Positions 24,672 through 32,927 of a stretch of 40,200 bases of DNA are shown here, one piece after another. The DNA is from an uncultured Coriobacteriales bacterium. Its GTDB lineage: Bacteria > Actinomycetota > Coriobacteriia > WRKU01 > JAENWW01. The notes below the pieces were generated by a model. The model was given only the letters and a program-made list of their open reading frames with translations, did not search any database and was not told where the DNA came from. Location of the stretch: the NCBI GenBank assembly GCA_937858655.1, contig CALLZE010000057.1:1-40200 (forward strand), given 5' to 3'. Numbering within the stretch: position 1 is the first letter of the stretch; each line of letters opens with the position of its first letter. The position numbers were made by a program, and so were the translations under genes.

Positions 24672-25361
24672 TTAGTGGCGGACGTCGTTCAAAATGAGAC
24701 CGTCAACAACGTGCAGCGTTCGGGAAACGCGCGAAGCGAGATCATTGTCATGAGTAACCATAACAATGGTTTTTCCCGCCGCTACCTGGCGTTCGAAGAG
24801 CTTAAAAACTGAGTCAGCCGTTTTTGAGTCAAGATTACCCGTTGGCTCGTCGGCCACAATGAGCGGCGGATCATTCGCAAGCGAGCGAGCAATCGCCACA
24901 CGTTGCTGCTGACCGCCCGACAAGGCCGCAGGCATTTTGTCGGCTTGGTCGGCCATCTCAACCTGATCAAGAAAATGAAGTGCTTTGGCACGGCGCTCCT
25001 CTTTTTTGTAGACGTTACAAAAATCCATAGGGAGCATGACGTTTTCGGCCACGGTGAGCGTTGGTAAAAGTTGAAAAAACTGGAAAACTACGCCGATGGT
25101 TTTACCGCGCCATTGTGCGAGTTGATTTTCGTTATACGTATGAACAGGCGCGTTGTCGACCCAGATTTCACCGCTGGTAGGGTGATCGATGCCCGTAATC
25201 ATATTAATGAGCGTCGTCTTGCCAGAGCCCGACTTGCCAATGAGCCCAACAAACTCGCCCGCGGAAACCTGAAGGTTTACACCTCGAAGTGCCTTAAAAG
25301 GCACTTCTCCCTTGTCGTAAATTTTTACAACATCGCGCAATTCAATGAGTGGCTTTTCCAT
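24672..25361 (-). CDS. ABC transporter ATP-binding protein (LolD/MacB type)
   Basis: ATPase of the neighbouring FtsX-type permease. The 229 residues have Walker [10 protein letters not shown] at 42-50, Q-loop [14 protein letters not shown], signature LSGGQ at 147-151, Walker [14 protein letters not shown] with Asp171 and Glu172, and the switch histidine in VTHDND. The N-terminal [14 protein letters not shown] and [11 protein letters not shown] fit the MacB/LolD subfamily. It leads a five-gene run on the minus strand to the DUF2628-like gene. AGGGG lies a few bases before the ATG. A terminator for upstream transcription stands about 90 bases before it. Confidence 0.95.
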
Positions 25362-25449: not shown

Positions 25450-25484
25450 AAAAAAAGAACCCGTAAGCATAAGCAAACGGGTTC
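25450..25484 (-). terminator. Intrinsic terminator
   Basis: GAACCCGT at 25457-25464 and ACGGGTTC at 25477-25484 form a perfect 8-base stem with a 12-base loop, followed on the minus strand by seven T (A at 25450-25456). It lies 180 bases past the rubrerythrin stop, too far to be its immediate terminator, which fits a separate short transcript ending here. Confidence 0.88.
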
Positions 25485-25560
25485 AATAATTTTTGGGTGG
25501 GGGCGCCGCTAATTAGAGGGGGGAGGTATCAACGGACGCCCCATAAACAGAATAACATGA
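25450..25560 (-). ncRNA. Candidate small RNA with a C-rich loop
   Basis: On the minus strand a 9-pair stem (25533-25542 with 25500-25508, one bulged A) carries a 24-base loop containing ACCTCCCCCCTC, followed 15 bases later by the terminator stem. The loop resembles the anti-Shine-Dalgarno end of 16S RNA, as in C-rich small RNAs of Gram-positives that block ribosome sites. The 5' end is only a guess; a TGTTATTC element near 25551-25558 might be part of a -10. It could also be just the 3' untranslated region of the rubrerythrin mRNA. Confidence 0.35.
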
Positions 25561-25613
25561 TTTCAAAATTCCGAGAGATAATTGTACGGCAGCCGAACAC
25601 TCTTTCGCAATAT

Positions 25614-25646
25614 CTCCACAATATTTTTTTACCCAATTTTGTGGAG
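25614..25646 (-). repeat. Hairpin just downstream of rubrerythrin
   Basis: CTCCACAA at 25614-25621 and TTGTGGAG at 25639-25646 are a perfect 8-base inverted repeat with a 17-base A+T-rich loop, starting 20 bases past the rubrerythrin stop. No T run follows on the minus strand, so it is more likely an mRNA-stabilising fold than a terminator. Confidence 0.55.
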
Positions 25647-25665: not shown

Positions 25666-26169
25666 CTAGTTCTCAAGCTCCTCAAGAGCCTTCAGATAAC
25701 CCTCTTTGTGCTCGTTCTCAAACTTGCCCACCATGCGGAAATAATGAGCAATATCGTCAAGACCTTCGCTCTCCGCAATTTTGGCGAAATCATCGTACAT
25801 AATATCGTGCTCATATGCTTCGCCCTCAGCAGCGGCCTTCAAATTTGCCTTGGTATCACCGAAACCTCCCGCGTAGACAAGGTGAGAAAGCGCGTGAGCG
25901 GTTTCCTCAGCAAGTGGACGCGCAAACGCGTCGATTACTGACTGTGACATGCCCTCAAGGCGCGCAATGTTCTGAAAGAGCGAGTAGCGACGATTCGCCT
26001 GAGACTCTCCCGCAAAAGCAGCTAACAAGTTCTCAAGAGTCTGCGTGCCTTTCAAATCAGGTGCCTCATACTCGACAAATGCGATTTTTGCAGCGCCGCA
26101 CATGGGGCACTCTTCGGGCGCTTCACCTACGTGAAGATAACCACATACTTTGCAACGATACAGTTTCAT
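25666..26169 (-). CDS. Reverse rubrerythrin (rubredoxin domain first)
   Basis: A cytosolic peroxidase that reduces hydrogen peroxide in anaerobes. The 167 residues begin with a rubredoxin domain, Cys6, Cys9, Cys21, Cys24, followed by the four-helix diiron domain with Glu55 in AGESQANRRY, Glu88/Glu89 and His92 in LAEETAHALSH, Glu117/Glu120/His121, and Glu151/His154 in FENEHKE. In classical rubrerythrin the rubredoxin part is C-terminal, so this is the reverse type known from clostridia. GGAGGAGA lies before the ATG. It follows perR and a rubredoxin gene in one operon, in line with peroxide-induced expression. Confidence 0.95.
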   Translation of the reverse strand: MKLYRCKVCGYLHVGEAPEECPMCGAAKIAFVEYEAPDLKGTQTLENLLAAFAGESQANRRYSLFQNIARLEGMSQSVIDAFARPLAEETAHALSHLVYAGGFGDTKANLKAAAEGEAYEHDIMYDDFAKIAESEGLDDIAHYFRMVGKFENEHKEGYLKALEELEN

Positions 26170-31649: not shown

Positions 31650-31769
31650 GTTTATTTTATGTATAAATAATTTTGATATTTAAGGCGTGAAAGGTCGCAA
31701 ATATTTGAACTTTATGCAAAGAATGTGCAGCAGCCTGTCCGAGAAGTGAAGGGGTGATACCATAGAGGC

Positions 31770-32927
31770 ATGAGAATTGGACTCTTTAGCGATACATACA
31801 CGCCTGAGATTAACGGCGTTGTTTCATCAGTACTCATGCTCAAAGAGGGGCTTGAGGACCTCGGCCACGAGGTTTGGGTTTTTGCGCCGGGCCACCCAGC
31901 CACCAGTGACGATGATGACCATATCGTGCGCATCCCGAGTATGCCGCTTGTTGTCCTGCCAGAGCGCCGCGTGGCGACGCCTCTTGAAATTGGGCTCATT
32001 CGCAAAATTCGCTCGCTCAACCTCGACATCGTCCACACCCATACCGAATTCGGTGTTGGCAGCTTTGGTTTCAGAGCAGCCAGCAAATTCGATATACCCC
32101 ACGTCCACACCTACCATACCGTGTATGAAGAGTACACGCACTATGTTGCGCTGAGGATTTTTGATGCGCCCGCCAAGGTGGCCGTGCGTCAATTTACGCG
32201 TCTTGTTTGTGAGCGCTGTGAGCGCATTGTTGCCCCAACACAAAAAACAAAAGACTTGCTTGTGCGCTATAAAGTTGGGGTTCCCATTGATGTCGCGCCT
32301 ACCGGCGTTGACCTTGCCCGCTTTTACATGCCTTCAGAAAGTGACCGTCCGCGCCTAGCAGACTTAAAGAAGTCTCTCGGCATTGACGGGTTCAAACATG
32401 TCATTCTCTCGCTTGGGCGTGTGGCACCCGAAAAATCAATTGTCCACCTTTTTGAAATGGTTGCCCCCTATCTTCGAGCGCACAAAGAGAGTTGCTTCCT
32501 TGTTGTCGGTGGAGGCCCCTCGCTCAAGAATCTTGAAAAGCTGCGCGATACTTATGGGCTCGCTGGCCAGATCGTCTTTACGGGCGAAGTGCCTTGGAGT
32601 AGCGTGCCCGACTACTATCGTATCGCCGATGTACTCGTCGGAAACTCACACACCGAAACGCAAGGGCTCACCTTTATCGAAGCGCTCGCCTCGGGTGTAC
32701 CGCTTGTTGTGCGCTACAACGCATGCTTTGATGGAATTCTTGAAGACGGTGTGTCCGGAACGCTCTTTACTGACGAAAAGATATTCGAAAGCGAACTGAA
32801 CCGTACTCTCAATGATGATGCACATAGAAAGTGCCGCATTGAGCACGGGCTCAACGCGGCACAAAATGTTTCAAAAGAGAGTTTCGCGCGCAATATCGAA
32901 AGCGTTTATCTCAAAACCAAAAAATAA
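31770..32927 (+). CDS. GT4 glycosyltransferase, probable diacylglycerol glucosyltransferase type
   Basis: A retaining GT-B glycosyltransferase of 385 residues. MRIGLFSDTYTPEINGVVSSV is the typical start of the 1,2-diacylglycerol 3-glucosyltransferase-like group; VHTHTEFGVG and HTYHTVYEEY lie in the acceptor domain, APTGVDLARF links the domains, LGRVAPEKSI is the donor-binding start, and the EX7E motif is Glu296/Glu304 in HTETQGLTFIEAL. It probably adds a sugar to a membrane lipid anchor. The ATG has GAGG just before it and GGGGTGAT 15 bases away, an unusual spacing. It stands alone on the plus strand. Acceptor and sugar are predicted only. Confidence 0.88.
   Translation: MRIGLFSDTYTPEINGVVSSVLMLKEGLEDLGHEVWVFAPGHPATSDDDDHIVRIPSMPLVVLPERRVATPLEIGLIRKIRSLNLDIVHTHTEFGVGSFGFRAASKFDIPHVHTYHTVYEEYTHYVALRIFDAPAKVAVRQFTRLVCERCERIVAPTQKTKDLLVRYKVGVPIDVAPTGVDLARFYMPSESDRPRLADLKKSLGIDGFKHVILSLGRVAPEKSIVHLFEMVAPYLRAHKESCFLVVGGGPSLKNLEKLRDTYGLAGQIVFTGEVPWSSVPDYYRIADVLVGNSHTETQGLTFIEALASGVPLVVRYNACFDGILEDGVSGTLFTDEKIFESELNRTLNDDAHRKCRIEHGLNAAQNVSKESFARNIESVYLKTKK

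Follow-up and report, generated by a model that had tools for sequence, protein, structure and literature searches.

A predicted small RNA with a C-rich, anti-Shine-Dalgarno-like loop in an uncultured Coriobacteriales bacterium, and a second locus of like design

The window analysed here, a stretch of 40,200 nucleotides from an uncultured Coriobacteriales bacterium (contig CALLZE010000057.1; the genome is G000 in what follows), carries on its minus strand a rubrerythrin-like gene and, further downstream, a gene for an ABC transporter ATPase, and the space between the two holds a predicted small RNA, termed sRNA1 (Table 1). The ATPase gene, which a sequence-only reading of this stretch had left unmentioned, starts at 25361, which is 89 nt downstream of sRNA1 and on the same strand; a leader RNA of that gene is therefore a rival explanation that needs a test.

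Table 1. Features of the sRNA1 locus in the window.
Feature	Position	Strand	Basis or remark
Predicted small RNA sRNA1, ~93 nt	25450..25542	-	Hairpin plus terminator, z -7.1; counterpart in G001
5' hairpin, 14 bp, one bulged U	25500..25542	-	Predicted fold; pairing kept between two genera
Exposed anti-Shine-Dalgarno-like loop ACCUCCCCCCUCUA	25514..25527	-	Within 18-nt run identical in G001; predicted unpaired 0.97-1.0
Intrinsic terminator, stem plus U7	25450..25484	-	Sequence and fold; G001 terminator at matching place, other sequence
Putative extended -10 promoter element TGTTATTCT	25549..25557	-	G001 has TGTTAGTCT at equal spacing
Rubrerythrin-like gene, upstream neighbour	25666..26169	-	Absent as neighbour in G001, where rsgA stands
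LolD/MacB-type ABC transporter ATPase, downstream neighbour	24672..25361	-	Also after the hairpin in G001

The sequence-only reading had described a stable minus-strand stem exposing its loop and followed by a terminator, and both parts of that description stand. The hairpin (25542-25500) reads GGGGCG-U-CCGUUGAU[ACCUCCCCCCUCUA]AUUAGCGG-CGCCCC, with the 14-nt loop in brackets, and a 15-nt link separates it from the terminator (25484-25450), which reads GAACCCGUUUGCUUAUGCUUACGGGUUC-UUUUUUU. The folding energy of the whole of 25542-25450 is -41.5 kcal/mol, as against -20.5 +/- 3.0 kcal/mol for dinucleotide shuffles, none of 200 of which folds as well. Within the predicted ensemble the C-rich part of the loop, CCUCCCCCC, which contains six or more C, is unpaired with a probability of 0.97-1.0, and the loop region of the terminator, UGCUUAUGCU, is without a C run. 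A simple terminator scan overlooked this terminator because its loop is longer than the limit of 8 which the scan allows. The same reading had placed the structure 180 bases past the nearest gene end, which needs amending, since the hairpin starts 123 nt past the stop of the rubrerythrin gene (25666) and a distance of ~180 nt fits the terminator instead.

With regard to expression, an extended -10 element (TGTTAnTCT) stands 6 nt ahead of the first stem base, a G, in the window and in G001 alike. No convincing -35 element was found in the window, and the promoter score is not above that of shuffles. From this element transcription of sRNA1 would begin at the first base of the stem, and it would end at the predicted intrinsic terminator.

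The conservation of the locus can be read from two sequences, those of the window's genome and of G001, which belongs to another genus and is the only other genome of the family compared; a search at the DNA level through 150 related genomes returned this one match. In G001 the counterpart of sRNA1 has rsgA on one side and the same ABC gene on the other. Between the two genomes the ABC proteins share 80% identity and the fourfold-degenerate sites of their genes only 29%, such that neutral sites are saturated. Despite this saturation, the run UACCUCCCCCCUCUAAUU, which comprises the loop plus its edges, is identical at 18 of 18 nt, where shuffled intergenic sequence reaches at most 12; a loop that is not conserved, which the sequence-only reading had named as a refutation, is thus not what the comparison shows. 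In the stem, two pairs differ in both bases and three in a single base, and all are still paired; the shuffle control for such compensation, which has little power with two sequences, gave 119 of 500. The G001 terminator is of unrelated sequence but occupies the matching place. A link to iron or peroxide through the nearby Fur-like and rubrerythrin genes was considered and rejected, the neighbourhood being different in G001. Separately, an inverted repeat, CTCCACAA...TTGTGGAG, lies 3' of the rubrerythrin gene at 25603-25645 of the window, without a T run, and TGTGGAGA recurs upstream of the G001 hairpin.

Since RNAs of such a design may keep only their loop, a stem-free model was built, in which randomised, invented stems serve as a search device only, and was applied to 400 genomes. 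It returned, within the genome that contains the window, a second copy (G000 C218; L119 2366-2408), here sRNA2. Moreover, a scan of ~1.14 Mb from G001 and 0.59 Mb from G000, which looked for hairpins with a C-rich loop and a terminator 3' of them, recovered the G001 counterpart of this second copy (G001 C5; L153 about 12251). The scan counted 6 such hairpins in G001 and 2 in G000, none in either genome for a G-rich-loop control, and 3 in each for another control motif; with about four-fifths of G001 and under half of G000 covered, further copies may exist. The sRNA2 loops are ACCUCCCCCCCUC (G000 C218) and AACCUCCCCCCUUA (G001 C5), each locus has a terminator, and in both genomes sRNA2 lies between pstB (convergent) and nhaA (divergent), with the gene order pstC-pstA-pstB conserved. 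The model score of sRNA2 is weak, at 22.7 bits, its support coming from synteny together with the loop. There are, in other words, two loci that are syntenic in both genomes, with a common C-rich core and differing stems. Where stems drift freely in this way, ordinary homology searches will miss RNAs of such design, and it was the search freed of the stem that found the sister locus. A possible further locus (G000 C145, L201 about 18000; G001 C8, L164 15010) has a hairpin with a C-rich loop of the CUCCCUUCCC type. The hairpin directly follows a tiny conserved gene (M[HY]DSFSAGKM...), with purE and a gene of LysR type close by, and its loops differ between the two genomes (CUCCCUUCCCU and AUCCCCCCCUUCCC).

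Beyond the family, the hairpin covariance model accepted only the window and G001 among 400 genomes of the class and had no match in 12 further genomes of the order. Likewise, Rfam gave no credible match in the window, whether at the gathering score or at E up to 10, and sRNA1 and sRNA2 look like a small family that Rfam does not list. A pattern match on a viral contig (L006) has the loop letters without a stem and is attributed to chance. In the search of 400 genomes a match in G112 (E 0.01) is a dms-type intergenic hairpin without a terminator, which was judged to be chance and not a homologue. This hairpin of a dms-type operon, seen in G112 (L009 about 1500) and G134 (L113), places its C-rich loop immediately ahead of an AGGAGG ribosome site, and may regulate the following gene in cis.

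The position of sRNA1 ahead of a same-strand gene raises the question of whether the hairpin is a cis-acting leader or attenuator of the ABC transporter operon, which would sense something and control read-through of the terminator, or the loop of which would cover the ABC ribosome site. In keeping with this, the same ABC gene lies downstream in both genomes, 80-90 nt past the terminator, and its ribosome sites are G-rich (AGGGGCG, GGGG); moreover, in G009, which belongs to the order but to another family, rplL and the same ABC gene are separated by a strong structure of two hairpins (L084 2236-2343, z -7.4), of a different kind and with a C7 loop. That structure, however, scores at chance with the hairpin model (E 0.44). 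Orthologues of the ABC gene were found in eight genomes of the order outside the family, and a C-rich-loop hairpin is missing upstream in six of the seven that could be read there; in G002, rsgA abuts the ABC gene. The predicted ensemble, furthermore, contains no alternative antiterminator fold, and the predicted pairing with the ABC ribosome sites is weak (-9.5 and -8.0). At the second locus both neighbours are on the opposite strand, leaving no downstream gene to lead, such that sRNA2 cannot be a leader. We infer that this independence carries over to the window RNA, and the independence proposed by the sequence-only reading gains probable support from sRNA2, which shares the design and has no gene downstream on its own strand. 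A leader role is, on this evidence, rather unlikely.

A terminator search of the window found no clear separate terminator 3' of the rubrerythrin gene, as would be expected if the hairpin were merely a 3'-end or terminator structure of the upstream gene with a loop that is C-rich by accident. Such a reading is quite improbable, given that the letter-for-letter conservation resides in the loop and not in the stem, that the upstream gene in G001 is a different one (rsgA), and that a separate terminator already lies 3' of the hairpin. The same nucleotides can also be read as a short leader peptide in which a proline run stalls ribosomes before the terminator (AUG GGG CGU CCG UUG AUA CCU CCC CCC UCU AAU UAG, MGRPLIPPPSN*), and an open frame with a stop is present in both genomes (GRLLVPPPSN* in G001). 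This reading is very improbable: the G001 frame has no in-frame AUG or GUG start (TTG only), no ribosome site is present, all third positions of the proline run are identical, and the changes in the stem alter amino acids while keeping base pairs.

As regards what the loop could bind, the 16S tail of the window's own genome contains GGAUCACCUCCUUUCUA, which the loop resembles with C in place of the U run. For a plain AGGAGG the predicted pairing favours the 16S tail (-12.6 versus -10.4 kcal/mol for the loop), and for G-run sites it favours the loop, as at rplW (-18.6 versus -17.3) and nuoH (-16.5 versus -13.1); by these computations the loop outbinds the tail on G-run ribosome sites that include those of rplW, rpmC, nuoH and recN. 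The earlier proposal that the loop can pair with strong sites such as GGAGG is supported, with the nuance that its predicted pairing is stronger at G-run sites (GGGGAGG) than at plain AGGAGG, for which the 16S tail is the better partner. Averaged over 229 genes, the computed pairing of the loop (-7.0) is below that of the 16S tail (-8.6) and about equal to that of shuffled loops (-6.65), and the loop therefore appears to be selective and not a general anti-Shine-Dalgarno sequence. Pairing of -14 kcal/mol or stronger on both sides is predicted for 3 of 229 orthologue pairs (rpmC, nuoH and recN), as against a permuted mean of 0.38 and maximum of 3, a modelled excess that is marginal; these three genes are accordingly put forward as weak predictions of sRNA1 targets. 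All target genes were named from their protein sequences and not by family search. The ribosome sites of rplW, rpmC and nuoH overlap codons of the preceding gene, and their conservation is no proof of targeting, because upstream coding sequence alone can conserve them. A conserved site, AGAGGGGAGAGAT, in G000 C155 and G001 C3 was rejected as a target, as it apparently lies on the strand opposite to a yidD-like gene.

Taken together, the best explanation, to which we assign a probability of about two in three, is that 25542-25450 of the minus strand is an independent, trans-acting RNA of ~93 nt which blocks G-rich ribosome sites, and which has at least one companion locus of like design in the family. 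The stem would display the 14-nt C-rich loop, which would pair with the G-rich ribosome-binding sites of selected mRNAs; the paired loop would compete with the 3' tail of 16S rRNA, and translation would be lowered. That the block would operate by covering the ribosome site is deduced from published work on B11 (PMC10470900, PMC12395582). A wider proposal, in which the RNAs form a lineage-specific 16S-tail-mimic family, with an origin separate from those of the 6C and cuckoo RNAs, that would act jointly as a global competitor for G-run sites and tune essential genes (ribosomal protein, respiratory complex I and DNA repair) and not one operon, is unlikely.

C-rich-loop small RNAs that act against ribosome sites occur in mycobacteria, rhizobia and Firmicutes. 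To our knowledge, none has been described from the present lineage. Known RNAs with C-rich loops are repressors that mask ribosome sites (PMC10470900, PMC12395582), among them the 6C/B11 RNAs of actinomycetes (Rfam RF01066), the C-rich loops of which are reported for B11 to pair with ribosome sites (PMC10470900). With these sRNA1 shares an exposed hairpin loop of six or more C, but 6C consists of two C-rich-loop hairpins, the second of which is the terminator, whereas sRNA1 has one C-rich loop and a separate terminator. 6C RNA is present in other genomes of the same phylum, with 3' hairpin loops such as CCUCCUCCCCCCC, and at each of six such loci it is this 3' hairpin that the window hairpin model matches best, albeit weakly (14-20 bits); the 6C model itself matches nothing in the window (E up to 10), elsewhere in G000 or among the sampled genomes of the class. 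This occurrence of 6C points to Actinomycetota as the phylum, and gene content suggests Coriobacteriia as the class. The alpha-r14 or 'cuckoo' RNAs of Rhizobiales (RF02344 ar14; NfeR1) have an invariant anti-Shine-Dalgarno loop, freely varying stems and several loci (PMC10746234, PMC3927594), much as sRNA1 and sRNA2 have a conserved loop core, variable stems and several loci per genome. They differ in having three or more hairpins, each with CCUCCUCCC, where sRNA1 has a single hairpin with ACCUCCCCCCUCUA and C6-C7. They presumably belong to another phylum, and the window has no Rfam match. It is because sRNA1 has one such loop instead of two or more, and because the Rfam models do not match, that it is filed under neither.

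The csRNAs of streptococci (CiaRH regulon) are similarly related short RNAs, several per genome, with an unpaired sequence complementary to the Shine-Dalgarno (PMC3091779), but theirs lies between two stem-loops and also covers the AUG, and their CiaR promoters have no parallel seen at sRNA1. FsrA and RoxS of Bacillus subtilis also aim C-rich single-stranded regions at ribosome sites (PMC8464778), with another architecture; FsrA is Fur-controlled, while the Fur-like gene of the window is not adjacent in G001. The best reading is of at least two trans-acting small RNAs that form a lineage-specific family, 6C/B11- and cuckoo-like in action and a member of neither. The finding of a compact, single-hairpin RNA with a C-rich loop at two loci suggests that this design arose more than once, or that it is wider than Rfam shows.

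Other C-rich loops were seen in passing. In G008 (C4 about 31650-31850; L120) a hairpin, UGCAAAGAGCAGC[UACCUCCCCCCU]GCUGCUCUUUGCA, has as its neighbour a repeated UUAGUUUGUUGAUUAGAGACAUU element, the C-rich loops of which are smaller. In G039 (C69; L121 3447-3554), of the same class, two hairpins side by side, the loops of which are ACCUCCCCCCUC and CCCCCUC, resemble the 6C/ar14 architecture, the best Rfam match of this two-loop RNA being ar14 at E 0.011, below the gathering score; going by this genome, multi-loop forms may exist in the class.
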